A model generated the notes under the pieces. That model was not told the origin of the DNA. It worked only from the letters and a program-made list of their open reading frames with translations, and did no database searches. Both the position numbers and the translations under genes were made by a program. Shown in pieces: positions 2,731 through 52,870 of a DNA stretch of 64,000 bases. The DNA is from Quercus robur (Eukaryota > Streptophyta > Magnoliopsida > Fagales > Fagaceae), in NCBI RefSeq assembly GCF_932294415.1, contig NC_065542.1:50694942-50758941 (forward strand), written 5' to 3'. Within the stretch, counting starts at the first letter, position 1, and each line of letters begins with the position of its first letter.

Positions 2731-2997
2731 ACGTACCCATACAAAATACTGAAAATAGTAGTAATACCAATCCTTTAAACAACTGTCAACGCAAACACAC
2801 AAGAAGATAAAGAATCCAATATATATAGAAAACATAATACAAAATCAAGCAAAATGCGCTTGAGAGTAATTAAAAACAATATATACAAGGCCCACAAATC
2901 CTTTTTGGCAACAAAAATTTATCAGGAAATCAAAAGATTCAGAAAACAATAGAAACGATGTTTAAAATAAGCCAAATTGAAGAATTAGAATACATAC

Positions 2998-3400
2998 CTT
3001 GGCCATCACTTATTAACATTGTATGCATTATAGGGACCAACGTTGGTTCAACTTGGACAAAAAGGTGAGGAAGCCTGCTGCTCATTGATTCAAGAATTGT
3101 GCTAATGGCACGCAAACAGCCAACTGCTGCCAAAGCACCAGGATCATCAGCTTCATCTTCAGCTTCAGCCGTGTTCATGCACCTCCAAAATGCAGCTGCC
3201 AGAATATTTATTAAAAAAAGAAGCTTTCAAGCACTTCTGAATATATGTGTAAAATCAAATGAAAATGGAGGCCAACAGTACCAAATTCTGTCAAAACCCA
3301 AGAGCATAAGGTTCCCAAACATGTCCCTATAGCCTCCAAAATAAAGGCAAGAACCTCATTCTCAACCCCATTCATAAGTTTAAAGAACTCTTGGTAGAAG
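2998..3400 (-). pseudogene. SAD2: SAD2-like importin-beta exons, arm 1 copy
   Basis: The reverse strand encodes two adjacent exons of an importin-beta-like nuclear transport receptor (SAD2, Importin-7/8 type). Exon D (2998-3195, 66 codons) is open, carries [20 protein letters not shown] and ends at GATGGCCAAG followed by GTATGT. The upstream exon C (about 3272-3400) reads [12 protein letters not shown], then drifts out of frame relative to the family sequence. The protein family has about 1,000 residues, so this is a small fragment. It is split from its upstream exon by an RTE LINE segment. It is almost certainly non-functional as an importin. Confidence 0.85.
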
Positions 3401-3629
3401 AAAATAAATATATTTATAGAACTCATTGAATAATTCTCATTGTTAGCAGAATTTTGCAAAGTTTCACAAAGCACATACCATAAGGAGTTGAGGAAGAATT
3501 GGACAGATTTCATTCAAATCTGCATTGTGAACAAAATGCAATCACTGTCAAGATAAGCAACATCTACACTAATGAAAAAATAAATATTAAGAAACACAGA
3601 AAAACACTCGCACACAGAGTGTAGCATAG

Positions 3630-4635
3630 ATTTCGTCCTTACTCAAAAAGTCGATAGTAGATGTAGTAAATATTGTAAGGTGATACCAAGAGAGAGTGTA
3701 GCCACCCAACATATGTGAGTGGTACTAGACATTTGTATTATAAGATGAACTATAAGAGACATTAGATAGAGAAACCCAAGAATAAGGTGGTAGGGTCTGA
3801 AGAGAGAAACAAGATGTGTTTGAAGAAAAATTATCAAATAAGGAAAGTGGGATCTAGCTGAAGATGTTAAGAAAATATGGAAAAAAATGGGTAGTTGTAT
3901 TTAAAGAGTGGTTAAAGAAATACTTGCAGAATCTAAATGATGAGGGCAACCGATTAAGGAGACTTGATGGTGCAAGATTAAAAAGAGACTCCCTAGATGT
4001 AGAGACAATATTTCTTATGAAAATTATAAATTGGCGTAAAAGGAAGCAAAAAAGGCTGTCCAAGAGGCTAAACTTAAGGCTTATGACGAATTATATAGCA
4101 AGTTGGGTACGAAGGATGGAGAAAATAATATTTATAAACTCGCTAAGACCAGGAAGTGGACGGGAAACTTGAATTAAGTAAAGAGCGAATCAAGAATAAA
4201 GATCAAAGAGTCTTAATAATGGAAAGGGAAATTAAAGAGAGATGTTGATAAAAATTTTAATGGAAGCGATACAAATACAATACATTAAAGCGAATTGAGA
4301 AGCCCATTTGAGGCTAGGAATCCTAGGTTTGTCCAAAGAATTAAAATGACCGAGAAAGGGACACATTGAGAAAGCTAAAGATAGGAAAAACTATGGGGGA
4401 CCTAATGAAATTACTATCAAAGTTTGAAAGTCCTTGGGTGATCTGGGTATACATTGATTGAAAAACCATTTCAAATTTGCAATAAGATCTTAAGTGTTGA
4501 AAAGATCCCTAGTGAATAAAGGAGAAGCACTCTTAACACCAGTTACAAGATTATCGAGGATATTCAAAACTGTACAAAAGTACTGCAGAATTAAGTTTAT
4601 AAGTCATACTATGAAACTTTGGGAGAGTGAAATCA
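3630..4635 (+). mobile_element. RTE-type LINE fragment inside arm 1
   Basis: Frame-shifted translation on the plus strand gives the region of plant RTE-type LINE polyproteins between endonuclease and reverse transcriptase: a VDVVNIVR-like stretch, AYDELYSKLGTKDGENNIYK, an RFVQRIK segment, SLGDLGIH and [20 protein letters not shown]. Several stops and frameshifts are present and the YxDD part is missing. The same fragment is present in reverse at 11730-12610, so it predates the inverted duplication. It lies between SAD2 exons. Confidence 0.7.
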
Positions 4636-4636
4636 T

Positions 4637-4830
4637 GTCAGCAGTCCTCAGACTGTATAAATCATCAATGATATCTGCAGCATAGCCCTTTCTCACATAC
4701 TCATGTGGGTCTTCATCCCAAAGCATTTGATCATTGTCATTGAAGCACACAAGGGGAAACACCATCTCAAAAAGAAGACTATCAAGTCAAGATTGGAGCA
4801 GAGTGTACATGGTATTCTTCAAGATACTGC
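4637..4830 (-). pseudogene. SAD2: SAD2-like exon ([12 protein letters not shown]), arm 1 copy
   Basis: The reverse strand reads [22 protein letters not shown] and then a short degraded tail, followed upstream by the conserved FEIVFP region in decayed form. This is an earlier exon of the SAD2/importin-7-like protein than the one at 2998-3195. The RTE LINE fragment lies between them. It matches 11519-11729 on the plus strand. Confidence 0.7.
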
Positions 4831-6690
4831 ATATATAATAAAAAAGAGTGGTTGCAAATGTTCTTGCCACAATAAACACTTAAAATTAAGTTTTAAAGAA
4901 AATACATATGTTATATATGCGACTTGAGTTTTGATTTTTGAAAAATTGTCAGCCGCTCTATCTCCATTCCCTGAGGGTTCAAATTATTAAAGAACTTTCA
5001 ATGAAGCACAAACAAAACTCTTGAAAATACCATGTTGACATTCAGTCAAATCTTAACAAATCTAACAATACAATCGTGTTTTCAAAACACGATTTCAGAA
5101 GCTGTTTGTTCGGTAGTGTGTAATTAGCTGAATGCAACAATAATTAGCACATAAGGAATACCAAAAAGAAAAACTAGATAGGAAGGCATAATTCTCTCCC
5201 ACTGAGGGTAAAAACTGAGCCAGGTCATCCCCTTCCAATCCAATCAAATCCTATAACAAATAAGGTTTGAAGTAGCAAGCAAAGTAAATAACCTAATCAG
5301 ACAAGAAAGTGACTCAATAAAACAAATAACATTGTAAAGAAAATTTTCTCAAGTCCCAGAGATACTACCATTTTGACTCTCAATTTCTTTCATAAACCTT
5401 TCTGCATGAAAAACATTCCAAGAACCAGGGGCTTGCCCTCAATATTCCATCAAAGAGGCACGCAATCGATAGAAATCCACTCATTGAAATGCAAGTAGCA
5501 CTAAACTTTATCCTCGAAGCTCAGAAGATTATATATATCCATTAAATATGAAAATTTATGGTAGAAAAAAAATTTGCTTCAATAATAAAGAATGATAAGT
5601 TGTTTCTCCATAAACAAATACAAATATTTAAGGGTTTGTTATCATTATTTCACATATTTTCCATCAACATCCATGGATGGTTTGTATTTATAATATTATA
5701 ATGAACAACTATGTTCACAAAATTTTGGACATTTAACAACTTAGAAAAAAAAAATTACCTAAAACAAGCTGACAACAAAAACTAAAAGTGATTTAAAAGT
5801 TTTGACACCCTTAAGCTCTTTCTTCATGGAATTTCTTTGTAATCTCTTAAAAGTTTTATTTATTTTAATCAGTGTATTACAAAGGCACTCAATAAGTCTT
5901 GAACTTTCACCTTCACCTTATTAATATAATGGATGATATAAGACTTGAGCTCAAGTCCACTAAAATCGTAATCTCAAAGTCATCCAAAGAAGAATTAAGC
6001 ATCTTCCTAGCTGATTTTAAGTTTTCAATGTTTGAATTCCTTCTCCTTCCTAAGTGTGATTGTTTAGGAAACATATTCAAGATTTCTTAGGGTCTATCTT
6101 TCTTAGTTTATTGTTATATTCTCTATATTAACACTGAACAGCCATCAAACTCATTCGAGATCAAATTTACCTGAACTCTTAAACATCAAACCAAACTTGA
6201 AGGCAAAACCCTTCAAGATCTCTTCAAGAACCCTAATTTAGTGATGAATTCCTGAAGATCCTACATCAAATTTGGTATTAAAGCCCACTAAAGCTTCTAT
6301 CCTAAATCATCCATGCTATTGAAAAGATAAAGATTGCAATTGAACAGCAACTCATTTGCACGGATAAAGAATAGATATATCAATTAAAAATCAAATGGAA
6401 CTAAGTACCTAAACATGTAAACCAACCAGAATGTAAAAACTTAAAACCATCCATGGTCAAGCAATTCATATTTGAAAAAATCTAGCCTATGTTTTAGTTG
6501 AATAGAACTGTACCGTGTTAAAGAAACAAATAGCAACTTCATCATACGATCTATTATTGATCTGAGTCTTCAATGACTGTGAGAAACAACTAACAGCAAT
6601 TTGAAAATGAGCTTCAACATTTAAAAAATAATAATAAATGAATCTTTATGAACAATGTCCCCACACCATTCATCATGCCAAAATACATCC
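4830..6690. other. Arm 1 interior, no gene recognised
   Basis: This is the part of arm 1 pairing with 7775-11520. I see short matches to the other arm but no family I can name. It holds the two empty sites: CTTGAACTT at 5897-5905 and ATTAAAGCC at 6277-6285. Short open frames (for example 5899-6090) are mirrored in the other arm at 8875-9087 and are probably not coding. Confidence 0.6.
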
Positions 6691-6704
6691 TTCTATCATC
6701 ACCT

Positions 6705-7735
6705 AGTGCAAATTAAATGGTTAGCAGTTTATGGAGCTGTCTGTATATGGATTGTGTGGCTTTGGATGTTGATCAAATAGCTAGTAGAGTATTGATTTTG
6801 TGGGACAGGAGGGTTTTTAAAAAGTTGGAAGTTTTGGTGGGTACATTCTTAGTGTCAGTTAAGTGGCAAGGTGTGGAGGATGATTTTATTTGGACATGCA
6901 CAGGGGTTTATATGGCCCAAATGATAACAGTGTAAAGGGACATATGTGGGATGAATTGGTTGGTATTCAGCAATACTGGAATATTCCTTGGTGTTGCATT
7001 GGGAATTTCAACATTGTTCGTTTCCTGAGTGAATAGAGGGGTGGTTCATATCTTACTCTAGCTATGGAAAAATTTTCAGAGTTCATTAAGGATCTTCACT
7101 TGATTGATTTGCCTTTAGAGGAAGGGAGATATACTTGGTCTAGTGGCACTTATTGACCTTCCATGTTTAGGATAGATAGAGCTCTAGTTTCACATGATTG
7201 GAAGGAACATTTTCCGGACGTGATCTAGCGGATTTTACCATGACCTGTTTTAGACCATTTCCCAATTCTTTTGGAGGTAGGGGTATGGCAAGGGGGAAGA
7301 GTCCTTTTCGGTTTAAGACGTGGTTGAAGACAGATGGTTTTATTGATAGACTTTCCCAATGGTGGAATTGCCATTCTTTCCCCCAGTACACCTAGTTATG
7401 TGTTTGCTAAAAAGTTGTAAGTTTTGAAAGAAGACATTATTTAGTGAAACCGTAGAGAGTTTGGCAATGTCAGCCATCAAAGGAAAGAATTATTGGGGGT
7501 TTTGGATTCATTAGATGCCAAGGAGGGGGATCTTGGACTCTTTTAGGTGGAGACCCATGAGAGAAATACGGTGAGGTCTCAAGCGGAGCATCTCCTTTCT
7601 CTAGAGGAGATCTCATGGAGACAAAAATTAAGGATGTTGTGTATAAAGGAGGATGATAATAATACTAAGTTCTTTCATGAGGAGGCTAACTCCCGTAGAA
7701 GGTATAACCATCTGAGTCTTGTCGCTCACATGTAA
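6705..7735 (+). mobile_element. L1-type LINE remnant (ORF2 endonuclease region) between the arms
   Basis: With frame changes and stops, the plus strand encodes the apurinic-endonuclease part of a plant L1 ORF2. Recognisable pieces are a GVYGPND-like word near 6907, a GNFN-like word near 7000, DLPLEEGRYTWSSGTY near 7110-7155, RIDRALVSHDWKEHFPD near 7170-7220 and LDHFPILLEVG near 7250. The linker WRQKLRMLCIKEDDNNTKFF follows near 7618-7680. At least six in-frame stops show it is dead. The reverse transcriptase domain is absent. It fills almost the whole spacer of the inverted repeat. Confidence 0.8.
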
Positions 7736-8196
7736 ATTTTCGTGTCGCTCACATGTAAATTTTCTTATCGCTCAGATGGAAGTGTGTATTTTGGCATGAT
7801 GAATGGTGCGGGGACATTGTTCATAAAAGATTCATTTATTATTATTTTTAAAATGTTGAAACTCATTCTAAGATTGTTGTTAGCTGTATCTTGCAGTCGT
7901 TGAAGGCTCAGATCATTACAAGATCGTATGATGAAGTTGCTATTTGTTTCTTTAACACTGTACGATAATGGTTCCGTTCAACTGAAACGTATGCTAGATT
8001 TTTTCAAATATGAATTGCATGACCATGTATGGTTTCAAGTTTTTACATTCTGGTTGGTAAATGTTTAGGCACTTGGTTCCATTTGATTTTTAATTGATCT
8101 ATTCTTTATCCATGCAAATGAGTTGCTGTTCAATTGCAATCCATATGTTTTCAATAGCATGGATGATGTAGGATAGAAGCTTTAGTGGGCTCCAAT

Positions 8197-8671
8197 CTAT
8201 GAAGCACGGGTGTGTTTCGGGACTCAGGTGCGGGTGCGGGACTCGGTAATTTTTGAAAAAGTAGGGTGCGGGTGCGGCAGGACTCGGCGATTAAAAAATT
8301 ATTAAAAATATTTTTATTTATATTTTCTATACATTTTTACTATTAAAATATTCTTAAAAAACACATTAATATACTTGATTCACAAAACAAAGAAAGAAGA
8401 AGGCAAGAAACACATCTGAGGTCAGAATTTCGGCTGCTCTAGCGAGTTTCAAGGCCGATTTCAGCCGTATCGGCCGCCGGCCAATACGACCCGATATGGC
8501 CGATACGGCCCGATTTTGGCCGAATTAGCCCGGTTCGGCGCGAATCAAGTCGAGTCGACGCGAATCCAAGAAAAAAAAAAAAAAAAAAAAACCCTCAGAC
8601 GCAGCACCGACGCACGGTCAATCGCGTCGGACTCCGGTGCGGCACCCTCCCAGCCGCATCCGTGCTTTCTA
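8197..8671. mobile_element. 475-bp TIR element, Mutator-like, 9-bp TSD
   Basis: The element is flanked by identical GGCTCCAAT at 8188-8196 and 8672-8680. Its ends are imperfect inverted repeats (CTATGAAGCACGGGTG against TAGAAAGCACGGATGCGG on the other strand). The interior is GC-rich with repeated GGCCGATACGGCC-like words and a poly-A run near 8572. The unoccupied site is visible in arm 1 at 6277-6285. A 9-bp duplication fits the Mutator superfamily. There is no transposase ORF. Confidence 0.85.
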
Positions 8672-9088
8672 GGCTCCAATACCAAATTTGATGTAGGATC
8701 TTCAAGATTTTAACACTAAATTAGGGTTCTTGAAGAGATCTTGAAGGGTTATATCTTCAAATATGGTTTTAATGTTTAAGAGTTCAGGTAATAAAAACAT
8801 TTGATCTTAAATGGGTTTGATGGTTGTTCGGTGTTAAAATAGAGAATATATCAATAAACTGAGAAAGATGGACCCTAAGCAATCTTGACTATGTTTCCTA
8901 AACAATCACACTTAGGAAGGAGAAGGAATTCACGCATTGAAAACTTAAAATCAACAGGGAAGATGGATAATTCTTCTTTGGATGACTTAGAGATTACGAT
9001 TTCAATGAACTTTAGCTCAAGTCTTATAACTTCCGTTATATTAATAAGGTGGAGGGTAGAGGGTGGAGGGTGAAGGTGAAAGTTCAAG

Positions 9089-9669
9089 CAAGGTTTTGAA
9101 ACCCGGACCGGACCGTACGGTCCAACAGGGAAAATCTCAAACCGCTCATCTTTGCGGTTCTTTTAGCTTCAAGAACCCCTCTATGTGAAAAAACAGGGAC
9201 CCGCACGAACTGCGGTCGGACCTCACGGTTCTGAGAACCGTGATCAAACCGCTTCTCATGGTTCCCTACTTCCCTTTCAATTTGAACCTTAAAAAAATAA
9301 AAAAATAAAAAAATAAAAAAATAAAAACAAAGAAAAACAAGCTTTAAATTCTGCTCCCTTCAGAGTAAAAGTTGATGGTGGAGAGGGCCGATTGCTGGAG
9401 CGAACGGTCTTTGTAGAGGAGATCGAAGGAACGAGGGATTCCGACGGAGGAGGAAGGATGGCTGCTGCTGAAGCTTGCGTCTGAGTCTCGTGATTGGTTG
9501 AATTAACGGAACTGCCATTTTTCCCCCTAAAAAATGGTGGTCCAAAAGAACCGGATCTGAAGTCACAGCTCACTATGGACTTCGTTCTTCACAGCGTAGC
9601 TCCACAGTGGACTAGATGACATCTTTACTTTGTGATTTTGGTCTAAGAGGAAAGAGGAACAAGAGATTT

Positions 9670-9748
<79 letters not shown>

Positions 9749-10451
9749 GGTTCTGCAAAATGGTGTTTGGGCAAGAGAGAAGCATTTTTTGTCTTGCAAA
9801 GGTAGTGTTGAATCTGTTGATACTTCATTTTTCAAAGCCACAATCAGATCAAATGCTCAAATGCCTAACAGCTAGCCACCTTGAAACTTTAAACATTGAG
9901 ATTTGGAATTATCATTTATAACCAGAGGACATGATTTAGTCTAACGTAGCTTTTTCAATTTTTTATTCTTTGCTTTAGTCATTTTTCTGGTCTACCGTAG
10001 CATCTTTTAATTTTTTATTCGTTTCTTTAGTCATGTCTTCTGTACGTGGTACTGTTTAGTCTATTTCTTGTTTTGTAGCCTAGGCGGATAGGCTGTTGTG
10101 GATGATAAATAGTTAAAATATTTTAATGGTATAAATCATGACTTTTAAAGATATTGTTAGGTTGATTAATGTACAAATTTATTAAAATATTATAAATGAT
10201 AAGAAAATATCTATTTAAAACCTATATTAAACTGTGAAAAATACATTTTATTTTTAGTAGTCTCTGAATACTTGAATTTCTTTAAATGTTTAGTCAAGAT
10301 TATTAATTTTTATGCATTAATTTTTATTTATTTCATATTAATTAATTATTACGTCATTACGGTTCGATCTCAGTTCAACCTCGATTTGACCTCAAAAACC
10401 TTGAACCTCTTTCTTTTACGGTTCAATGAACGGTCCGGATCTGAAAACCAT
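9089..10451. mobile_element. 1.36-kb TIR element, Mutator-like, 9-bp TSD
   Basis: It is flanked by AAGTTCAAG at 9080-9088 and 10452-10460. The ends are inverted: GGTTTTGAAACCCGGACCG on the left against GGTTTTCAGATCCGGACCG read from the right. The empty site is present once in arm 1 (CTTGAACTT, 5897-5905). The interior holds a long (GA)n tract at about 9673-9745 and no transposase, so it is non-autonomous. Confidence 0.9.
9673..9746. repeat. (GA)n microsatellite
   Basis: An uninterrupted GA dinucleotide run of about 36 units lies inside the 1.36-kb Mutator-like element. It generates long false Arg-Glu and Ser-Leu open frames on both strands. Confidence 0.95.
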
Positions 10452-11518
10452 AAGTTCAAGACCATTGAGTGCCTTTGTAATACACTGATTAAATAAATAA
10501 AACTTTTAAGAGATTGCAAAGAAATTCTACGAAGAAAGAGCTTGAGGGTGTTAGAACCTTTTAACCACTTTTAGTTTTTGTTGTTAGGTTGTTTTAGGTA
10601 ATTGCTTCTTTTCTTTTTCCAATGTGTTAAATGTCCAAAATTTTGTGAACTTCATTATAATATTATAAATTTAAACCATCCATGGATGTTGATGGAAAAT
10701 ATGTGAAATAATGATAACAAACCCTTAAATATTTGTATTTGTTCAGAGAGAAACAACTTATCATTCTTTATTATTAACGCAAAATATTTGTCTACCATTA
10801 TATTCATGTTTTATGGATATAATCTTCTGAGCTTCGACGATAAAGTTTAGTGCTGCTTGCATTTTTAATGAGTGGATTTCTATCGAATGCGTGCCTCTTT
10901 GATGGAGCATTGAGGGCAAGCCTAGTTCTTGGAATGTTTTTCATGCAGTAAGGTTTATGAAAGAGATTGAGAGTCAGAATGATATTATCTTTGGGACTCA
11001 AGAAAATTTTCTTTACAATTCACTTTTCAATGTTTTTGATTTATTGAGTGACTTTCTTGCCTGATTTGATTATTTACTTTGCTTACTACTTCAAACCTTA
11101 TTTGTTACAGGATTTGATTAGATTGGAAGCAGATGACCTGGCTCAGTTTTTACCCTCAGTGGGAGAGAATTATGCCATCCTATCTAGATTTTCTTTATGG
11201 TATTCCTTATGTGCTAATTATTTTTGCATACCACTAGTTACAAATTGCCGAACAAACAGATTCTGAAATCATGTTTTGATTGTATTGATAAATTTGTTGA
11301 GATTTGACTAAGTTACAACATGGTATTATCAAGAGTTTTGTTTGTGCTCCATTGAAAGTTCTTTAATAATTTGAACCCTAAGGGAATAGAGCAGTCGACA
11401 ATTTTTCAAAAATCAAAATTCAAACCACATATATAATATATGTATTTTCTTAAAAACTCAATTTTAAGTGTTTATTGTGGCAAGAACATTTATAACCCTC
11501 TTTTCTACTATATATGCA

Positions 11519-11729
11519 GTATCTCGAAGAGTACCACGTATACTCTACTCCAATCCTGACTTGATAGTCTTCTTTTTGAAATAGTGTTTCCCTTTATGTG
11601 CTTCTATGACAATGATCAAACGCTTTAGGATGAAGACCCACATGAGTATGTGAGAAAGGGCTATGCCGCAGATCTCATCGATGATTTATACAGTCCGAGG
11701 ACTGCTGACATGATTTCACTCTCCCAAAG
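11519..11729 (+). pseudogene. SAD2: SAD2-like exon A, arm 2 copy
   Basis: After a TTCTACTATATATGCAG acceptor the plus strand reads an importin-7-like segment: a decayed SISRSTTYTLL-like start, then FEIVFPFMCF, DNDQTL, a stop, and [12 protein letters not shown] followed by [10 protein letters not shown]. The stop at the position of a conserved Trp (TGG to TAG) and frame slips show it is a pseudogene. SAD2-type importins carry Ran-GTPase-dependent cargo through the nuclear pore; that role comes from the family, not from this fragment. Confidence 0.85.
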
Positions 11730-12610
11730 ATCTATAGTATGACTTCTAAAATAAATTCTGCGGTACTTTTGTACAGTTTTGAAACTAGGATAGTAATTTC
11801 AAACTTCGATGGTAATTTCATTAGGTCCCCCATAGTTTTTCCTGTTTTTAGCTTTCTCAATGCGTCCCTTATCTCAGTCCTTTTAATTCTTTGGATAAAC
11901 CTAGGATTCCTAGCCTCAAATGGGCTTCTCAATTCGTTTTAATGCATTGTATTTGTATCACTTCCATTGAAATTTTATCAATATCTCTCTTTAACGTCCT
12001 TTTGCTTTAATAATACTCTTTGATCTTCATTCTTGATTCACTCTTGACTTAATTCAAGTTCCTCGTCCACTTCCTGGTCTTAGCGAATTTATATATATTA
12101 TTTTCTCCATCCTTCATTCCCAACTTGCTATGTAATTCATCATGACCCTTAGTTTAGCCTCTTGGACAGCCTTTTTTGGTTCCTTTTACGCCAACTTATA
12201 ATTTTCATAAGCAATATTGTCTCTACATCTAGGGAGTCTCTTTTTAATCTTGCACCATCAAGTCTCCTTAATTGGTTGCCCACATCCTTTAGATTCTCCA
12301 AGTATATCTTTAACCACTCTTTAAATACATTGCTATATTTTTCCACATTTTCTCAAAATCTTCATCTAGATCCCACTTTCCTTCTTTGACAATTTTTCTT
12401 TAAACACGTCTTGTTTCTCTCTTCAAACCCTACCACCTCATTCTTGGGTTTTTCTATCTAATATCTCTTATAGTTCATCTTCTAATACAAATGTCTAGTA
12501 CCACTCACATATGTTGAGTGGTTACACTCTCTCGGTATCACCTTACAATGATTACGACATCTACTATCGACTTTTTGAGTAAGGATGAAATCTATGCTAC
12601 ACTATGTGTA
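11730..12610 (-). mobile_element. RTE-type LINE fragment inside arm 2
   Basis: This is the reverse-strand counterpart of 3630-4635: GNQLRRLDGARLKRDSLDVE, KIISWRKRNQKRLSKRLN and FIQRIKRTEIRDALRKLKTG are readable. It shows the same position relative to the SAD2 exons as in arm 1. It is broken by stops and lacks a complete reverse transcriptase domain. Confidence 0.7.
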
Positions 12611-12699
12611 AATGTTTTTCTGTGTTTCTTAATGTTTACTTTTTCATTAGCGTAGATGTTGGTTATCTTGACACTGATTGCATTTTGTTCACAATGCAG

Positions 12700-13220
12700 A
12701 TTTGAATGAAATCCGTCCAATTCTTCCTCAACTCTTTGATGGTATGTGCTTCATGAAACTTTGCAAAATTTTGCGAACAATGCGAATTATTCAATGAGTT
12801 CTATAAATATATTTATTTTCTTCTGCCAAGAATTCTTTAAAGTTTAAACTTATGAATGGGGTTGAGAATGAGGACCTTGTCTTTATTTTGGAGGCTATAG
12901 TGGACATGTTTGGGGAGGAGATGGCAACTAATGCTCTTGGGTTTTGCCAGAATTTGGTATTGTTAGCCTCCATTTTTATTTGATTTTACACATATATTCT
13001 GAAGTTCTTGAACTTTTTTTAATAAATATTATGGCAGCTACATTTTGGAGGTGCATGAACATGGTTGAAGCTGATGATCCTAGTGCTTTGGCTGCAGTTG
13101 GCTGTTTGCGTGCCATTAGCACAATTCTTGAATCAGTGAGCAGACTTCCTCACCTTTTTGTCCAAGTTCAACCAACGTTGGTCCCTATAATGCATACAAT
13201 GTTAACAAGTGATGGCCAAG
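12700..13220 (+). pseudogene. SAD2: SAD2-like exons B, C and D, arm 2 copy
   Basis: Three consecutive exons keep their splice sites. Exon B (12700-12741) follows ACAATGCAG and reads DLNEIRPILPQLFD before GTATGT. Exon C (12831-12956) reads EFFK, then a 7-bp insertion shifts the frame, then [20 protein letters not shown] and [16 protein letters not shown]. Exon D (13038-13220) is open, with [20 protein letters not shown], and is 15 bp shorter than its arm 1 partner because of an EDEA-region deletion. The order matches SAD2/importin-7-like proteins. The frameshift in C and the missing remainder make it a pseudogene. Confidence 0.9.
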
Positions 13221-13549
13221 GTATGTATTCTAATACTTCTATTTGGCTTATTTTTGACATTGTTTCTATTCTTTTCTGAATCATTTGATTTCCTGATAAA
13301 TTTTGCTGCCAAAAAGGATTTGTGGGCCTTGTATATATTGTTATCAATAAGTCTCAAGCGCATTTTGTTTGATTGTGTATTACGCTTTCTGTATATATTG
13401 GATTCTCTATCTTCTTGATTGTTTGCGGTTGACAGTTGTTTAAAGGATTGGTATTACTGCTATTTCGTATGGGTACATAATGGGTTTCAGTATCCTGTCC
13501 TTATGCCTTCACATGTAAACATACACAATCACTTTTGCGTAAAAGGTAT

Positions 13550-13741
13550 TAAAAAAAGAGAAGTTGTCAAGCACTTCTGAATATGTCTAAAATCAAATAA
13601 AAATAGAGGCTAACAGTACCAAATTCTGGCATAGCCCAAGAGCAAAAGGTGACATCTCCTCCCCAAACTAGTCCACTATAGTCTCCAAAATAAAGACAAG
13701 GTCCTCATTCTCAACCTCATTCATAAGTTTAAAGAACTCTA
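13550..13741 (-). pseudogene. SAD2: Third SAD2-like exon C copy
   Basis: On the minus strand 13620-13740 reads [20 protein letters not shown], then IVD, a stop, FGEEMSPFALG and LCQNL, followed by the intron start GTACTG. It is closer to the expected family sequence than either arm copy (NEVENE rather than NGVENE). It points opposite to exon C at 12831-12956, so it forms a second, smaller inverted pair. It ends abruptly at about 13741 where AUG3 intron sequence starts. Confidence 0.85.
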
Positions 13742-14029
13742 GAACCAGACTAATCAAATTTGCAGAGTTTAAATCAAAACTATCATAAAAGTGAACAAGT
13801 TTAAAATATATTCCATTTATCATAGCTTACATACCTCTAAATTTCTCGCTGAAAGACTATCGTCTAGATTTGTAAGGTGTCCATTGACAGTTGTAGAAAC
13901 TTGTGCCCAACTCCCTTGGATTAAAGATGAAGCCTGGTCAGTGAGCATATAAAATTGAGACTGAATATGCCTGAGTTGTTTCTGCAACTCTAAAGCTTCA
14001 GCTTTATATGCCAAAGTTGCGTCCCTAAA

Positions 14030-14740
14030 AATAAATTACAATTTTTAAGAATTTTTTAATTAAAAATATCGGCATTGGAAACAGAATACTAGAATTTCAT
14101 CATTACTAACCCAAATAATTCACAACAAATACATCAACAACAAAAAATTTCATCAGAAGCTAAAAGATAGAGGATTTGTCAAGTGCTGTTCCCAACTAAG
14201 TGAGGTAATAGAAGGGGTGGCTTGGATAAGGTTTTACCTTCAGCATTTTTTGCATTAAGTGGGCACACAAAATGTGTCATGTCATAATGAACCTAACACT
14301 ATGTTTAGTTGATATAATGAAGTGAAAACCAAATACAACCCAGAAGATAATCATTGAATTCAGCATCAAATTAAGACCGAGAGACATATCATCTATCATG
14401 ATTCAAACTCGCTAAAATTTCAATCGAAATGGATGGATTCTCCCCATTTTGATCAAAATGGGGGAAATGTTATAAGTTATGGAACGGCATTCTCCCCATT
14501 TCAATCCAAATGGAGGGATTATTTTTCACGGCTATGATTTGATTTCTTGGATTTAACAATGTACAAAAACGATGTGACACTTGTTACATCTTTAGATTCG
14601 TAATATTTAATAAAAACCATGAAATAAACCCATTTCAAATGGAGATGAACCTAATACAAAAATTATAGTTTAAACTTTAAAAGCCCTATCTAAAACATGA
14701 AAAAAGGCATGCAATAAATGAGCATTTGGATCACGTCCAC
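14030..14740. other. AUG3 intron 2 sequence, no separate gene
   Basis: This is AT-rich sequence between AUG3-like exons 2 and 3. It includes diverged direct repeats of ATTCTCCCCATTT near 14435 and 14490. No open frame of interest was seen. Confidence 0.5.
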
Positions 14741-14922
14741 GTTTGGATGTTTTGCGTTTCAGCCTTTTTTTTTTTTTTTTTGGACCAGCGCCTGGTGCAT
14801 TGTTCATGGGACATGAACAATGCATCAAGGCTTATGAACAATATTTTTAGTGTGAATAGAAATCAGAAATTACTTTTTTATTGTTTTCAGTTTTCAGCAA
14901 AATAAGCGGTATCCAAATGCGA
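14740..14922. mobile_element. Degenerate MITE (CGTTTGGATGTTTTGCG type)
   Basis: It begins with CACGTTTGGATGTTTTGCG and ends with GCGGTATCCAAATGCG, an imperfect inverted match. It contains a short palindrome, TGCATTGTTCATGGGACATGAACAATGCA, near 14797-14825 and a poly-T run. The class is uncertain (hAT-like). Confidence 0.4.
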
Positions 14923-14924
14923 GA

Positions 14925-15074
14925 AATTATTAGATACTCCTGGAGTACCATAAATGCGGACTCCCTCCTCTCACATGAATGATGGGTCCCACTAATTAAA
15001 TTCATGGTGGAACCTATCATTCATGTGAAAGGAGGGACTACGCATTTATGGTATTCCGGGAGTACCTAATAATT
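14925..15074. mobile_element. 150-bp foldback MITE with about 68-bp arms
   Basis: The left half (AATTATTAGATACTCCTGG... ATGAATGATGGGTCCCAC) pairs with the right half almost completely (GGTGGAACCTATCATTCAT... CCGGGAGTACCTAATAATT). Only a loop of about 13 bp stays unpaired. There is no coding potential. No convincing target duplication was found. It lies in an intron of the AUG3-like pseudogene, next to another degenerate MITE. Confidence 0.8.
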
Positions 15075-15861
15075 TTCCTCCAAACACACCCTAAATATGC
15101 ATATTTAACTGAAAAGGAAACTCTTCATCGAAGGCATATACTAGAACAACCACTATGATGCAAATTTGAAACCCTAGCCCCAAATATGTTTGATTTCATA
15201 CGTTTTTTGTCAAAAGAAGAGATAAATGTATAACAACCATGTTTTTATTGGTAAGTTATAGAAGCGGTGAGTGAATACCCAATATCTTTCTTCAACGCCA
15301 AAAAGTGCTTCCTTCCTGGTCTAGTAGAAAAGGCAAAAATGCTATCATCAAAAGCAAAGTCCAAGTCCTCTCTCCCTGTAATCACTCAAAAATTCAAATT
15401 CTGTGGAAAAGTGAAGTAAATAAAAGATGATGAAGAAGAAGAAACCTTAATTGAAAAAGGGAAAGGAGAGAGAGAGAGAGAGAGAGGACACTCTGCTCCG
15501 ACGTAACCCAATTCCCTTAGCAAAGAGCACACTCGACCTCCGGCCACTCTCTCTCTCTCCCTCTCTCTCTCTCTCTCTTCCTCTCTTTCTTTTGTTCTGT
15601 TTAAAGAGAGAGAGAAAAAGACAGAAAATTTGAATTGTGTTTTTTGCAACGGCTTTCTTGCTGTTATTTATTGGCCAACTCTCATGCTTCACTGACACAC
15701 ACACTCTTTGTGGTGGTGTGGTGTGTGGGTGCAATTTGCAAAACAAAATGGGGCTTTGCCAAAACCGTTTTGGTTTTGTTTTGTTGGAGTCAAAAGTGAA
15801 CGAATTTTTTTTCCATTTAACATTAGATTGCTAAGAATTTTGTTAGTTACCTAGTTTCAAA

Positions 15862-16624
15862 ACAAAGTGGAAAAATAGCATCTCGAGTTTCTAAAACTCG
15901 AGTTTTGGGCAGAAATCAAGTTTCTAATACTCGAGATCCTGAGCTATAAGCGGCTGACATGGATTTTTTTCCATGTGGAGCCACGTTGAAATCGAGTTTC
16001 TAAAACTTGATTTGTGATCATATTTCACCACAGCGTCCAGACCAGAACACTCTCGCACCCAAACATACAAATCCCAACCTAAGACAAGCACATACATCAC
16101 CATCGGCGAACCCATCGGTGGAGACTCCAGAACACTCTCACACCAAACATACAAACCCATCGGCGGAGACAAGCGTAGACATCAAAAAACCCATCAACGG
16201 AGACAAGCGCATCTCATTGGTGGTAGAAAACTCTCGTCTCCTCTCATCGGCAACCTCACTCAAGTTTCACTTCTTCTTCCTCACGATCTTTTGAGTTCTT
16301 CGTGCAAATCAAACACAGATTGTCCAATCACCCACTCAAATCTGTTCTTCCTCTATTCTTCGTCGCTGTTCTTTGTCGTCTAATCGTTATTCTTTGTCGT
16401 CAGATCGTTGGTTCTTTCTTCAGTTCTGTTGTTGTTGAATTACCAAAATCGAGTCTCAGATATTCAGTTTTGGCTTTTAGAACTCGAGTCTTTAAAACTC
16501 GAGATCTATGTGGCATTTTTTGTCCAACTCATCCAACAGAAGATTCGCAAAGTGAGTCTCTGAGACTCGAGTTTTAATATGGATCTCGAGTTTCTAAAAC
16601 TCGAGATGCTAGTTTCCTTATTCC
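15862..16624 (+). mobile_element. TIR element with CTCGAG-rich ends, copy 1
   Basis: The left end reads GTGGAAAAATAGCATCTCGA and continues with a CTCGAGTTTCTAAAACTCGAG palindrome. The right end mirrors it: CTCGAGTTTCTAAAACTCGAG, then ATGCTAGTTTCCTT. A candidate short target duplication TTTCAAA flanks it (15855-15861 and 16625-16631). There is no transposase. A second copy in opposite orientation lies near 32372-32885. The 95-codon frame at 16007 is internal and not convincing. Confidence 0.65.
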
Positions 16625-16639
16625 TTTCAAATGCATGTT

Positions 16640-17840
16640 AACTTACTACATTGTAGACCCTTACACAACTAATCTGCAAATATCCCCAAAGTGAACCCAT
16701 GATTTCTTGCTTTCCAAATTTTGAAAATATATATAAGAGCATGCATTCCTTCTTTTGAAATTTCAATTTCAATTTCAGTTTCAATTTCAATTTGGTGAGA
16801 GATTTCTTGTAATATTGTTTTGTATTTTTTTGAAGTACGTGTAAGTAAAAAAATGTGTAAAAATACGTGTAATGTTGTTTAAACATTGAAAACTGTTGTT
16901 TAAACAACGATAACAAACGGGCCCTAAAACTGTGAAATTTCAATTCAATTTCAATTTTTATGATTTAAATAAAGTGGGTATAGAATGTGAAGTAATAATT
17001 GCGTAACAAGATTTTCTTTTCCTTTTTCTTTTCTTTTTTTTTTTTTTTTTTTCAAATGGTGACTTATTTCATTTATCTATTTTTATACTAGTATTATTTG
17101 TGGAGACATTTTTTTTTCAGACTAATGTAGGGTTTTGCTTTGATGGATTTCTTCTTTTTTTTTTTTTTTTTTTTTTCTTTTCTTTTTGGATTTCCATATT
17201 GACCTTCGTTGAGCATGTAAATCTTGACTCTCTTTTTTTTTGAAGTTTTACTTATTTGTTCTCACAAATGTTGACAACCTTGGAAAACTTCTATTTTTCT
17301 TTTCATACAGCAAGTGTTAATTATTAATTGGATGTTCCTCCATTTGCTTCAATTTGATCGAAGTGGCAAAAATTATACTTGCTAATTTCTTTTTTAAAAT
17401 TAGCTATCAAAGATTCAAAAGCATAAAATGCTTACAAATTAATAAATTTCATATAAATTAACATGTACCTCATTCCTTTTCATTGTGTGTGTGTGTTTGT
17501 TTCTAAATAAAATAAAATAAAAAAAGAATAATTGTCTCACATTACTTAATAGAGTGTGTTCTTACTTTACCCTCCCTTAAAAGTTTCCATGACTTATGAA
17601 TTGTAATCTCATTCCATCTCCTTGGTATGTGCACCTATGTGATTGCTTCTAAAAAAATAAAAAAAAATAAAAACTAATAAATGCCATTTTCTAATGCCTT
17701 AACATATACAATCTAACATAAATATGTAAAAAATAAATAAATTTGTATTCTTGCATCCCAAACTTTCTAAATGCAAATGAAAATGAGTTTGTTTGGAAAA
17801 GAAAAAGAACATTTACTAAAGAGATTTAGTAATATATTTT
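16640..17840. other. AT-rich non-coding stretch
   Basis: It holds a TTTCAA hexamer repeat near 16760-16792, a probable TE end (AACAAACGGGCCC) near 16911, and several long T runs at 17035-17052 and 17155-17176. No gene was seen. Confidence 0.5.
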
Positions 17841-18026
17841 GGGTCATGCTAACGAGTGCCCTTAAAGCATTAGTTAACAATCCAGTTAAAGAAAGTTTTT
17901 ATAGGAAAAGATAAAAAAAGCAATTAATATTTTAATAGCTTTTTCCATTTTCCATAAAAGTGATGTCAAAACTTTCTTAAAATTGATTATTAACCAATGC
18001 CTTAAGGGTACTCGTTAGCATTTCTC
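17841..18026. mobile_element. 186-bp MITE, Mutator-like, 9-bp TSD
   Basis: It is flanked by ATATATTTT at 17832-17840 and 18027-18035. The ends are inverted over about 40 bp: GGGTCATGCTAACGAGTGCC on the left against GAGAAATGCTAACGAGTACC read from the right. It is non-coding. A 9-bp duplication and long TIRs fit a Mutator-derived MITE. Confidence 0.85.
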
Positions 18027-18396
18027 ATATATTTTTATAAACATATTTCTTAAATGTTCCCAAAATTAATGAGTTATACTCAGCAAAAATTGAATAATAA
18101 AAGAGCAAATGAGACACTAATACAAAATAATAGTTATACTTTAAAAGCAAAAAAGAAAAATAAAAAAGAAGATAAAATTGAAGGGGCCATTACCATAAAG
18201 TTTCTCATTATTTTTGTAATTTTTAGATTTTAATAAAAGGAGGTATTTTTGAAAAGGCAACAACTTATTGCACATATGATAACGTACATATCTTTACATG
18301 TGCCAAAAAAAAAAAAAAAAAAAAAAAAACACCTAAAATTATGACTTCTTGAATTAATGTCTATGATAAACTTCTTTTTAAAAGCTAGGGAACTAT

Positions 18397-18423
18397 GCTC
18401 CCCCCCCCCCCCCCCCCCCCCCC
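18397..18423. repeat. Poly-C tract
   Basis: A nearly pure run of about 27 C residues follows a poly-A run at 18306-18328. Long C homopolymers are uncommon in AT-rich plant DNA. Further examples lie at 46503-46519 and 62369-62386. Confidence 0.9.
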
Positions 18424-18762
18424 TTTCCATAGTTGATAAGGAGTATGAAGTTGGTGCAAAGAGTTATACGTTGATGATGAACGGTGTTAAGACAACAAGA
18501 GTACGGTGTGATCAATATCAACTTGTCAATCTTATCGCTATAGATGGGATCTACGACTACAGCTAATATAAGTTCAAATCTTTCAATCAGCAAAAAGAAA
18601 AAGGGAATCAAGCTGTTGACAAAGTAACATGTATAATATAAAAGTTAATGGACAGTTTTAGCTAACAAAAATACACTTCATTTGGGACTTTTCTTTCAGC
18701 GGTGACACCTAAGTTCATAAGTCAAAGAAATGGAGTAAAATCCAGGGTAGGCTCCCTAGAAA

Positions 18763-19511: not shown

Positions 19512-20211
19512 CCTAGAAATTTCCTCTACATATTATTTATGCTATAGTGGGTGCATTTAGCTTCATCTTAGATTAATTACAACACATGAGAGGGAGCTAT
19601 GCGACCAAAAGTTTTCAACATTTGATTTCTATTTCAGGTTAAACTTCTCTATGCATTGCATGACTTATCCATTAGTCTATGACTCTATATATAATTACAA
19701 GAGTCTTTATCAAGATTCTGCCATTTGTTAACTTTGGATAATCCACAACATGACACGTGGCATTAGTATGATTCATTGTGTGTTTATAAAAAAAAAAAAA
19801 ATTGATAATATTCATGTGTGCCTAGTAAATGTTTGTTTTTTTTTTTTTTTTTTTTTTTTTGAGTTTCAACCTATGATATCTACTCTTAAAAATTGTTTTT
19901 TATCATCAAATCAAGACACAAACACTAATTTAATATCAAATCGCTACAACTAAATTTAACCCAAAAATACTGGAAATTCTCTTAAATAAGACATTTAATT
20001 TGTTTCTTAATAAGACATTCACTATACAGCTAAAATGACTGGATGCACTAAATATTTTTATTTTTGAGAATCTAACGGAAGATTAAATATAGAATAAAAT
20101 TTAAAATATGTATTAAAATGTGAGTTCCAGTTAGCTCAACTGGTAAAGTCTCTGATAGTTGAATAAGAGATCTGGGGTTCAATCCCCGTCTACACCAAAA
20201 CTGATTGGTGT

Positions 20212-20855
20212 TGTATGGGTGCCAGGGCCCCAGGCCCATTGGGCCTGGGGACCTGACCTGGTAGCGTAGCCCATTTCCCATCCCCACTTTGAACCTATAG
20301 CCTCGATTCGAGCACCTTAGGGACAGAACTGGGCCTAAGAACCGAGATGAGACAACACCGTCTTGAACACCCACAACATGCCCCTTCTAGCCACCTTCAA
20401 CCTGGTCGAGGTATCATTGCTCGGAGATACTCTAACCGGTAATGCCTTTGAGAATATCGCTGCCGAGCAGGCCTTCAGAGGTGAGAATCAGTTCCAATGC
20501 CATTATCACTTTTCGACGGAGCACCCACTTAGGAATGATGGAATTGGACCCCCATTCGCACTAGTAAGGGGGAGTAATCATAACACCTACATTGATCGTA
20601 GCCTATAAATAGGAGAAGAGAATGAGGAATTGGGGGTTGGTAATTCTAGAGAGAACATTGAGAGAAGAGAGCAAGCACTCTAAGAGAGAAAGGTAGCGAC
20701 TATGTGAGGTAAAGAGAAGGGTTTGAGCAAACAGGAGTGTAGTCGAGTCTCAGAGTATAGGGCCACCCATAGTAGGAAACCCAAAACCCACAATACAAAT
20801 AGATTGTGAGCCCAAGTAGAGGCTGAACCCAATAACCATATTTTGGGTATGCACA
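20212..20855 (+). repeat. 5' LTR (644 bp)
   Basis: It starts TGTATGGGTGCC and ends GGGTATGCACA (TG...CA). A TATA box (TATAAATA) lies at 20604-20611. The following GAGAACATTGAGAGAAGAGA stretch is probably the transcribed R/U5 part. Confidence 0.95.
20604..20611 (+). promoter_or_regulatory. TATA box of the 5' LTR
   Basis: TATAAATA is preserved at the same LTR position in both copies (3' LTR at 30599-30606). It would drive genomic RNA of the element. Confidence 0.7.
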
Positions 20856-30189: not shown

Positions 30190-30205
30190 ATCAATGAGGG
30201 GCTAT
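30190..30205 (+). other. Polypurine tract, probable
   Basis: ATGAGGGG directly precedes CTAT and the 3' LTR start at 30206. This is where plus-strand DNA synthesis is primed in LTR retroelements. It is short and not perfectly purine. Confidence 0.55.
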
Positions 30206-30850
30206 TGTATGGGTGCCAAGGCCTCAGGCCCATTGGGCTTGGGGACCTGACCTAGCAGCCTAGCCCACTTCCTATCCCCACTTCGGACCTATAGCCTCAA
30301 TCCAAGCACCTCAAGGACCGAACTAGGCCCAAGAATTGAGACGAGACTGCATCGTCTTGAACACCTACAACATGCCCCTTCTGGCTACCTTCAACTTGGT
30401 TAGGGTATGATTGCTCGGAGATACTCTACCCAGTAGTGCCTTTGAGAATATCACTGCTGAGCAGGCCTTCGGAGGTGAGAATCAGTTCCAATGCCATTAC
30501 CACCTTTCCAACGGAGCACCCACATAAGAATGATGGAATTGGACCCCCATTCGCACTAGTAAGGAGGAGTAATCATAACACCTCTACTGATCCTAGCCTA
30601 TAAATAGGAGAAGAGAATGAGGAATTAGGGGTTGGTAATTCTGGAGAGAACATTGAGAGAAGAGAGCAAGCACTCTAAGAGAGAAAGGTAGTGACTCTAT
30701 GAGGTAAAGAGAAGGGTTTGAGCAAACAGGAGTGTAGTCGGGTCTCATAGTATAGAGCCACCCATAGTAGGAAACCCAAAGCCCACAATACAAATAGATT
30801 GTGAGCCCAAGGAGAGGCTGAGCCCAATAGTCATATTTTGGGTACGCACA
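30206..30850 (+). repeat. 3' LTR (645 bp)
   Basis: It is the same length as the 5' LTR within one base and carries the same TATAAATA (30599-30606). Differences from the 5' LTR appear denser in the first half than in the second, by eye. It is followed by the target duplication GGTGT at 30851-30855. Confidence 0.95.
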
Positions 30851-44295: not shown

Positions 44296-44333
<38 letters not shown>

Positions 44334-44341
<8 letters not shown>

Positions 44342-44411
44342 AGACCTGATGTCAACAAATAGGATTATAGGAAGATGAGTTTTTCATGTGTTGCGCATAA
44401 ATTGTACATCA

Positions 44412-44465
<54 letters not shown>

Positions 44466-44538
44466 AGACCTGATGTCAACAAATAGGATTATAGGAAGAT
44501 GAGTTTTTCATGTGTTGCGCATAAATTGTACATCAAAC
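44334..44538. repeat. Exact 81-bp tandem duplication separated by (TA)n
   Basis: An 81-bp unit starting AAACTGAGAGACCTGATGTC and ending TACATCAAAC occurs at 44334-44414 and 44458-44538 with no visible difference. Each copy is preceded by a TA run, giving a 124-bp period. Confidence 0.95.
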
Positions 44539-49990: not shown

Positions 49991-52693
49991 CTATTGCCTG
50001 TCTTCTCCATTGTTGTATCCGTCATGGGGCTTCGTGGACTTGCTGGATTTCCTCCTCAAAACTACAAACCAAGTAATTGCTTCCAACAACAAGGAAATCG
50101 CACCCAACACAATGAGCACAATAACATAAGCAGATTTCCATTTCTTTGCAGGCTGCAAAATGTCATAACCCTTGAACAAATTGACGACACCAAGAATAAT
50201 AATGGTATATCCAATACCATGGTGGTAGATATTCCAATAAAAGCGGTACTTGTGATCTTTCTTTGGTCTTAAGAACAGTGCAAAAATCTGTAAAACCCAA
50301 ACAAAGAGTTTTCATCAGAAGAAAAAGAAGGAAAAGAAATGTCACCACAAGTTTCCAAATATATGCTCTCCATTTTACAACCAACAAGATGCATAAACAA
50401 AAAAATAAATAAAACAATTGTACACAACAAATTTCCAACCCTAAACGCTTAACCTACACAATGTATTCGATACAATAATAAAAAAAGATCAAAATCAAAA
50501 TAGAAATAATTTTTAATTACATATATCTTTCTAACAGAAAACTCCAACATCATTGATAATTCTTTGAGCCCCAACCTAAAAAGTGGATATTGTCCAAGTT
50601 CCAATTCAAAATTAACTTTCTCTAATTTATCTTCAAATTTTTTAGCATTTCACATTTTCAACATCCAAAAGCCTCATTAAGTCTCTTTATATTTATATCT
50701 CCAATACTCAGAAAAGAGTTTCAGTTTGATACTTATAAGACCCAACAAGTGACAGAATCAGCTAATTACAAGATAGCAAAAGATACATAAAAAAGACAGC
50801 CTGATTCCTAAAAACAACACTAAGTTTGCAAAAAAACATTACCTGCACAGTGGCGAAACAAAACAATGCAATTCCGATGTTACGATGATCCGTGTATATG
50901 ATTCCTTGTGACTGACCTCCAAGCTTAAGACCAGTTGCCCAGCCAGCCACCCCAATGGCATAAGCAGATACTTGACAAAAAGCATGAAGATAGAACCATG
51001 CCGGATCCGCAGACTCAAAAGTCCTCAAGTACCTTGCAATGATAGCTCCAACAGGAAACAGAATGCCCCAACTCACAACATTCAGTATTCCATGAATCTG
51101 ACACCCAAAAAGACAAAATAACATTCAACAATTTGTTGTACCGTATCACAAATATGCCTCCATTTTCCTTTACTTTCACATGGAAACAACAAACAGAATA
51201 AAAAAAATTAGAAACTAAACAAGCAAACAATCAAATGGTACGCCAAGCTTTATATTAAATCCAGTTCCAGTCAAGAATTATAAACAAACAAGAAGTTTTG
51301 AATTTTTCAGGGCTTTAATCAATCCAAGACTAATCAATTAAATTTTCTACATCCATCCGCTGCAAATTAAAGAAAGGTTAAAAGTCAATTTAGTCAATTA
51401 TTAAATCAGTGTTTCAGGTTTTATTTGGGTCAATTTAATCCTCATCAAAACTAGTCAATCTGGTCCTTCCGTCCAATTTGTTAATAAAAAAAATTGTTCA
51501 AACATTCTTTTTTCACTAAAAAATAACTGAAAAAAAAAAAATAAAAGGGATTAAACTTAAACAACTTCATTTTCTAACAGATTTGGATGGAATAACAAGA
51601 TTGATTCATTTTGATAAAGTGAGGAACTAAATTCACAAAAATTAAGCCAAGAGCCTTGTGGGTCAACTTGGCATCTCCTCGTTCAAATCCCCCACCCCCA
51701 ACTATTGAATTATAGAAGAAAAAAAAAATCACAAAAATTAGATCTTATGAACTAATCATGTGAAGAAATGGAATTTTACCATAAAAGATAATTTCTTTCC
51801 TTAAAAAACCCATTATCTTTTACACATCTTTCCTAAGGAAAAAAAAAAAAAAAAAAGAAGGAAAAAATTTCAACTTTTAGACACCCAAAACCTTATCCCA
51901 CAAACTACACCCAAATATTCCAACTTTTAAACAAACCCAGATGAATCACACAATTCCCAAACGCAGCCACAAACAAATTTCAAATTTCTGACAAAAAATA
52001 AAAGGAAAGAGAAACCAATCAAAATGATAAAACCATAATAAGAAACAAAATCAAACAGGTAATAAGAAAACTGACATTTTTATTCTTGGTCCTTGAACCC
52101 AGTCCACCAGAGGTAGAGGAAGTCTGGCCAGCAGTCAAATTGAGAGTGGACAAAGAAGCCTTATTGGCTGCACTCATCGCATGTATATCTGGTACACCAT
52201 TTGTAACAGATGGCCCCACCTGCCAAACCTGGTTAACAATGTCAGAGTTACCAGGGAGCTTCAACTTAGCAAAAAGCGTAATAGTTCCTCCTGATTCCTC
52301 AGCACTTAGGTCCCAAACCTCAAAGGAAATCTTGGACTCAGCGATAGAAGCAAAAGAGGTTATGTTATAGGTTTTAACAGTCATAGCACCACTGGATTTG
52401 AAGGCTATGAGGGCCTGAGCACCAAGCATGCCAGTCGCAGTTGGGTTTATGGCCCAAGCGACCCAACCATTGGTGCCTGCAGGCTGAGCCATGAAAGCTA
52501 TGGAGAGAGATGAATTGGCTGCGTTGAGAGTCCAATGGAGATAAGAGGAGAGGTGAGGGAGGTCTAGACATTTGGAATAGAGAGCGTTGTTGGTGAAGGT
52601 TTGGGAGGTACAGGTTTGGGCATGAGATGGTGAGATTAGGAGGAGAGAACAGAAGCTGAGAAGAAGAATCACAGAGGATTGATGAGAATCCAT
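49991..52693 (-). CDS. Cytochrome b561 and DOMON domain-containing protein, 389 aa
   Basis: Three phase-0 exons: 52076-52693 (206 codons), 50843-51097 (85) and 49991-50287 (98 plus stop). The start at 52693 begins [20 protein letters not shown], a signal peptide cut near residue 25 (SHA/QTC). DOMON spans about 45-165 ([33 protein letters not shown]). From I207 a six-helix cytochrome b561 domain follows; His 208, 244, 277 and 313 fit the b-heme ligands by spacing. The tail is basic and ends GYNNGEDRQ. Exon 2 starts after GGTGTCAG; exon 1 ends with a weak GTCAGT donor, the least certain junction. The family moves electrons across the plasma membrane, probably between ascorbate and apoplastic acceptors. 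The gene looks intact. Confidence 0.92.
51400..51645. mobile_element. Degenerate TIR/MITE in intron 1 of the b561/DOMON gene
   Basis: AATTTAATCCTCATCAAAAC on the left matches, in reverse, GTTTTGATAAAGTGAGGAAC-type words on the right. Further mirrored pairs are CTTCCGTCCAATTTGTTA and TAACAGATTTGGATGGAA. The ends are worn and no target duplication was fixed. Confidence 0.45.
51650..51730 (+). mobile_element. Worn SINE in intron 1
   Basis: It has box B-like CGTTCAAATCCCCC and the tail CAACTATTGAATTATAGAAG followed by poly-A. A sister copy near 58201-58285 shares the ACTATYGAATTATAAAA tail. The head is shortened. Confidence 0.5.
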
Positions 52694-52870
52694 TGATAGG
52701 GTTTGTGAGAACAGACAGAGAGAGAGAAAGAGAAAAACTAACGGCCACGTTTGGTGAAAGAAATAAGGCTGAGGCTGTGCCCGTGTGTGTGGCCGTGTCT
52801 CTGTCTCTGTCTCTGTGAGACGTTTGTGTCTGAATGTGGGCAAGGGGATATGGGGGTATAATATATGGAT
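52694..52870 (-). promoter_or_regulatory. 5' leader and TATA region of the b561/DOMON gene
   Basis: On the minus strand the 150 bp before the ATG are CT-rich (the GAGA/GTGTCTCTG tracts at 52715-52820 on the plus strand). They are preceded by a TATATTATA word at about 52856-52864. CT-rich leaders are common in plant genes. The assignment rests on position only. Confidence 0.45.

Follow-up and report, generated by a model that had tools for sequence, protein, structure and literature searches.

A 64,000-nucleotide stretch of the Quercus robur genome (C38:50694942-50758941, hereafter the window), searched against the assembly of 785.7 Mb in 42 contigs, carries near its left end a long inverted repeat built from broken pieces of a SAD2-type importin gene and of Ku70. 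Self-BLAST and inspection placed the left arm at 2731-6717 (minus strand in gene orientation), the right arm at 7775-13477 (plus strand) and the spacer at 6718-7774. The anti-diagonal of the self-comparison is made up of four pieces: 2753-4429/13465-11797 (90.0% identity), 4563-5906/11783-10452 (87.8%), 5910-6285/9055-8672 (87.8%) and 6282-6697/8191-7775 (88.4%), with E=0.0 for the two longest and 2.6e-124 and 5.5e-141 for the remaining two. The outer ends of the arms were set at about 2731 and 13477 by inspection, and the left inner end was extended to 6717 through its match to the SAD2 gene. The facing arms separated by about 1.1 kb that had been proposed in a sequence-only reading of the window are therefore present, with lengths of about 4.0 kb on the left and about 5.7 kb on the right, the right arm being longer because it holds two later transposon-like inserts (8197-8671 and 9089-10451). 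Of 3,741 ungapped columns, aligned pairwise in the outer part and from the BLAST pieces in the inner part, 317 are mismatched between the arms (91.5% identity); perfect runs of 21 nt or more number 50, the longest being of 71 nt.

The two arms contain the same chimera. SAD2-type exon remains were found in both by tblastn with an importin probe (99% identical to the Arabidopsis SAD2 homologue AT3G59020; the exon numbering used here is our own, taken from the tblastn blocks), and the left-arm exon 8-9 translation matched an importin-7 structure at 1e-07; for the exon 14 translation no credible match was obtained. A Ku_N domain was identified by Pfam in the inner left arm (open reading frame 6490-6645), and tblastn with a Ku70 probe detected residues 55-88, about 127-158 and about 229-248 in each arm. 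When mapped to the genome and read in gene orientation, each arm runs from SAD2 intron through Ku70 exons to SAD2 exon 8 with part of exon 9, then a LINE-like (long interspersed nuclear element) insert and finally SAD2 exons 12-14. The Ku70 exon 2 region lies at 6511-6622 (minus; Pfam, tblastn and gene match) and 7850-7987 (plus; tblastn and gene match), and the Ku70 exon encoding residues about 229-249, with flanking intron, at 5072-5329 (minus) and 11034-11279 (plus), joined to SAD2 at 5070-5072 and 11279-11283, respectively. SAD2 exon 8 and part of exon 9 follow at 4630-5070 (minus) and 11283-11716 (plus), the LINE-like fragment at 3632-4629 (plus) with its counterpart at 11717-12589, and exons 12-14 with their introns, supported by tblastn and gene match, at 2753-3631 (minus) and 12590-13519 (plus). 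The match of the right arm to three other copies of the family continues to 13548. The sequence-only reading had correctly assigned the same importin exons and the same LINE-like fragment to both arms, and had overlooked the Ku70 exons as well as a third SAD2 fragment and an AUG3/HAUS3 exon described below.

Several lesions are common to both inverted copies and predate the duplication. The four joints of the chimera coincide between the arms within about 10 bases; a CGA codon in exon 8 of the SAD2 gene is a TGA stop in both; neither arm retains exons 10-11, the last part of exon 9 or the intron separating exons 8 and 9; and both carry the LINE-like insert. Because the joints, the stop codon and the lost exons are held in common, the chimeric unit was already dead before it was duplicated in inverted orientation. 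The start of the LINE-like insert (3626-3735) matches many dispersed places in the genome, and the insert is presumably of the RTE type, a label based on its motifs; Pfam found nothing credible in four pieces of it. Both arms also contain a frame, IVISKSSKEELSIF...LLLPKCDCLGNI, running opposite to the gene orientation (5896-6087, plus; 8878-9162, minus), which is probably a repeat within Ku70 intron sequence, since many dispersed places in the genome match an overlapping stretch (about 6009-6311), with identities of about 69-80%.

The spacer (given on the plus strand) consists of a dispersed repeat from 6718 to about 7720 followed by 23-bp tandem units at 7720-7778. The repeat has at least 41 matches in the genome, the window itself included, with 40 of 255 candidate places scored; we take it to be a LINE of the L1-like kind, on the basis of its motifs, and Pfam found nothing in three pieces of the spacer. 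The two transposon-like inserts, for neither of which a strand was assigned, are confined to the right arm. Insert 1 (8197-8671) is flanked by the 9-bp repeat GGCTCCAAT at 8188-8196 and 8672-8680, and the corresponding site in the left arm has one copy of a GGCTCCAAT-like sequence with two differences; insert 2 (9089-10451) is flanked by the 9-bp repeat AAGTTCAAG at 9080-9088 and 10452-10460, again with one site in the left arm. Both are high-copy, with at least 52 genome matches for insert 1 (40 of 916 candidates scored) and at least 58 for insert 2 (40 of 1,469 scored), three of the others being near full length. From their 9-bp repeats and imperfect terminal inverted repeats both are presumed to be Mutator-like. 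The sequence TTTTTTGTAGTG at 2719-2730 directly adjoins the outer end of the left arm and, judged by its motif, presumably represents a CACTA-like element end; positions 1-2640 held no good partner for it. The window gave no hits in Rfam or tRNA scans.

Loci for both genes lie together on C39. A SAD2-type gene whose exons, in order, account for the whole protein occupies C39:15494512-15508653 on the minus strand, which bears out the supposition of a functional-looking SAD2 elsewhere; its joined exon translation is 99% identical over its full length to the Quercus suber 'importin beta-like SAD2 isoform X2', the next match being 93%. Ku70 exon blocks for residues 51-249, the portion read, are found about 26 kb from SAD2 and on its strand, at C39:15464.3-15468.5 kb, and the six main blocks of this portion are without a stop. 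Besides the stop-free exon block at L036:1734-1603, the Ku70 locus contains an extra exon-like copy with a stop (residues 90-114; L036:3076-3002). Since Ku70 and SAD2 are only 26 kb apart on one strand, capture of unlinked genes by a Helitron or Pack-MULE was set aside for the Ku70-SAD2 part, and the arm ends show no clear element ends by eye; such capture may nevertheless apply to the AUG3 part.

Further relatives are found on C38 itself. A region of 204 kb read without gaps (C38:55.144-55.348 Mb) contains additional SAD2, Ku70 and AUG3 fragments; all 27 tblastn matches (E up to 0.01) fall on the plus strand, in the orders AUG3-SAD2 (twice), SAD2-Ku70-SAD2, SAD2-AUG3 and SAD2 alone. The SAD2 and Ku70 fragments retain introns, and alongside them lie AUG3 fragments and leucine-rich repeat (LRR) frames (31 pattern hits, one frame having been put through Pfam); the same LRR pattern had no match in the window or in the 20 kb to its left. 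The region thus presents several rearranged local copies on one chromosome among LRR frames, as in the tandem-like blocks of the oak genome. A tree built from exons 13-14 of six sequences joins the left and right arms as sisters with 100% ultrafast bootstrap and places the cluster copies L011, L014 and L015 in a separate clade (74%). A third unit in the window (13547-18586, minus; a gapped match), consisting of an AUG3 fragment and then SAD2 exon 13, is inverted relative to the right arm and adjoins it at 13547/13548, so that an AUG3/HAUS3 exon stands beside the right arm and a third SAD2 fragment abuts it. This unit matches the C38:55.16 Mb unit and, over a shorter stretch, the 55.18 Mb unit, and its border with the right arm is a second fold-back-like junction. 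The palindrome of the window is most likely a piece of a decayed and rearranged segmental-duplication family. The cluster has a palindrome of its own at C38:55.169-55.174 Mb (L012:5153-7478 and 7676-10000), with arms of at least 2.3 kb that are 96.3% identical across a 197-bp spacer, and so more alike than the arms of the SAD2 palindrome; it continues at 91% into L013:1-1161, with an LRR frame of 389 residues (Pfam run on 341).

Exons and introns have diverged equally between the arms, with differences at 65 of 784 exon positions (8.3%) and 142 of 1698 intron positions (8.4%; p=1.0), the pattern of neutral decay, and the segments expected to target SAD2 or Ku70 under a silencing role therefore show no sign of constraint. 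Comparison of the arms with the C39 genes gave 140 differences in 1568 exon positions and 367 in 3396 intron positions, a gap attributable to the constraint expected on the genes themselves only. The Jukes-Cantor distance between the arms is 0.090, which corresponds to about 4.5 million generations at 1.01e-8 per generation, the oak mutation rate stated in the relevant portion of PMC9018854. Among 2,681 21-mers from SAD2 exons, 69 occur in the left arm, 61 in the right and 26 in both, whereas the 204-kb cluster contains 380 and the third unit 31; because the cluster figure sums several copies covering more of the gene, it shows only that the palindrome is neither the sole nor the largest store of SAD2-matching sequence. 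For Ku70, where six exon blocks were read, one block shares 10 (left) and 6 (right) of its 94 21-mers with the arms, another shares 2 of 88 with the left arm, and four share none.

These results are best explained, with a probability that we put at roughly 85%, by a head-to-head (fold-back) duplication, since decayed, of a chimeric pseudogene unit that was dead beforehand, with no role in silencing SAD2 or Ku70. Under this explanation, material from C39 would have been copied to C38, where tandem amplification and deletions would have followed; one of the units would then have been copied in inverted orientation, the strand switch occurring in or beside the L1-like fragment that is now the spacer, and a second fold-back would have created the junction at 13547. 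The arms would since have drifted, free of coding or target constraint and under CHG methylation, gaining the two transposon inserts. On present sequence evidence the locus would be a case of ordinary genome decay, and the closest known kind is the rearranged tandem-like blocks of the oak genome.

A number of points weigh against this explanation. We infer the C39-to-C38 direction and the fold-back mechanism, and from sequence likewise the lack of function, while the production of small interfering RNAs (siRNAs) is compatible with neutral divergence, as a hairpin needs no coding constraint. The search of the assembly did not identify the source gene of the AUG3 part, whose best match outside the window (C38:48424937-48425604) is 92% identical over 662 bp. 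Moreover, when CHG decay was measured as C-to-T changes at CHG against CHH sites, with polarised counts for the arms, the stem before duplication and the gene-plus-stem branch, both arm branches showed an excess: 9/118 against 12/657 on the left (p=0.002), 13/118 against 20/657 on the right (p=0.0005) and 22/236 against 32/1314 when pooled (odds ratio 4.12). No such excess was found on the stem (5/125 against 28/669; arms-stem contrast z=2.51), which fits methylation that began with the inverted duplication. This footprint could reflect siRNA-directed silencing or the ordinary silencing of the dead copies themselves. The palindrome may accordingly be a local source of heterochromatin, its siRNAs methylating the palindrome itself and perhaps its C38 relatives while sparing the C39 genes, and an excess that both arm branches show and the earlier stem lacks speaks for such a source; we nonetheless regard it as unlikely, for dead repeats beside transposons are methylated anyway and the strongest CHG decay among the copies compared belongs to one that is not inverted. 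In a pairwise copy-versus-gene comparison, this long SAD2 pseudogene copy near C38 55.29 Mb (offsets 150146-155543 of the 204-kb cluster) gave 35/219 against 61/1318 (odds ratio 3.92, p=1.5e-08), exceeding the left arm (1.46, p=0.38) and the right arm (2.57, p=0.003), so that inversion is not needed for the mark. The non-inverted copies pooled also show a CHG excess in the pairwise comparison (58/496 against 137/2622), but it comes mainly from one of six, the five other groups together giving 23/277 against 76/1304 (odds ratio 1.46, p=0.13), and a control carried by one copy does not distinguish whether the palindrome adds to the mark. Small three-way controls, pooled, gave 7/183 at CHG and 22/1146 at CHH sites (p=0.105).

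The regulatory role against SAD2 suggested in the sequence-only reading finds less in its favour. Its physical premise holds, in that a transcript crossing the spacer could form a putative long double-stranded RNA: the geometry fits, the perfect runs of at least 21 nt would give duplex long enough for dicing, and the arms share SAD2 exon 21-mers and a few from Ku70 with the genes. A read-through RNA diced into small RNAs that silence SAD2, and Ku70, in trans, in the manner of OGI or FERR-R, would also have precedents in a rice inverted pseudogene pair (PMC2708354) and in the chimeric FERR-R (PMC7674411), as far as the relevant portions of these reports describe them. However, the exons of the arms are no better kept than the introns, the matches to the arms span a small part of the SAD2 gene, and more SAD2 21-mers are found in the non-inverted copies of the cluster taken together, though these are several and cover more of the gene. 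The gene-plus-stem branch, furthermore, has no CHG excess (4/118 against 22/657), so that by this indirect measure the C39 genes show no footprint of silencing at the DNA level. The sequence evidence leaves a regulatory role possible but unsupported, and silencing in trans appears improbable, more so than a local source of heterochromatin. Still more doubtful is a dual-target hairpin that in some tissue would dampen both the DNA end-joining factor Ku70 and SAD2/EMA1, known as a brake on the miRNA pathway, a role that the oak gene may share; if true, it would be a self-tuning small-RNA locus made from fragments of linked genes caught in a resistance-gene block. That the inverted repeat is an artefact of assembly is the least credible of these alternatives and can practically be dismissed: inverted repeats are in general error-prone in assemblies, but the 8.5% difference between the arms and the two one-sided inserts weigh against such an error, the window is without Ns, and related fragments recur elsewhere on C38.

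Known systems make the idea of a hairpin reasonable in kind, while nothing found in our analysis supports one at the oak locus. The Arabidopsis PAI1-PAI4 locus is reportedly an inverted repeat of gene copies with unlinked homologues, an arrangement that the oak locus resembles, but the oak C39 gene-plus-stem branch lacks a CHG footprint. Titles and abstract openings of the literature on SAD2/importin inverted repeats, Ku70 pseudogene siRNAs and Quercus hairpins contained no description of the locus. In rice, inverted pseudogene pairs are described, in part of PMC2708354, as giving transcripts that can form hairpins with mapped small RNAs, one having a loop of 1,283 nt; the oak locus is similar in having two adjacent inverted pseudogene copies with about 1 kb between them, whereas the rice stems of 154-185 nt have mapped small RNAs and the oak arms of about 4 kb are known from sequence alone. 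The poplar FERR-R is presented in a section of PMC7674411 as a chimeric rearranged copy whose siRNAs silence FERR, and like the oak chimera it is a rearranged partial gene copy with a working copy elsewhere; FERR-R and the persimmon OGI, however, are expressed sex regulators, unlike the oak arms with their lack of constraint. Transgenes for hairpin RNA are described as invariably methylated in a portion of PMC9263138. Oak genomes, according to parts of PMC9018854, contain complex tandem-like duplication blocks of varied ages, often locally rearranged, reaching megabase scale and showing an enrichment of resistance domains, LRR among them. The C38 relatives likewise sit among LRR frames, but their passengers are broken SAD2, Ku70 and AUG3 fragments and one unit is inverted head to head.

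If the decayed fold-back duplication is the correct explanation, fragments of linked housekeeping genes can move to another chromosome, multiply among LRR genes and fold into inverted repeats, and loci of the poplar FERR-R type are built of similar material. Were the palindrome transcribed, it would offer a natural experiment to see whether a long genomic hairpin with 8.5% mismatches can act in trans, and the CHG decay of its arms could show when methylation began.

Elsewhere in the window, a direct repeat of about 646 bp (90.2% identical; 20211-20855 and 30205-30850) flanks a frame resembling RNase H and reverse transcriptase, the whole being an old long terminal repeat retrotransposon. Two DUF568-containing gene pieces lie about 10 kb apart (50765-53050 and 63036-63530), the former also with a cytochrome-b561-like stretch below the Pfam cut-off. 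At 44302-44538, a stretch of 113 bp is repeated exactly in tandem, with a period of 124, between AT tracts.

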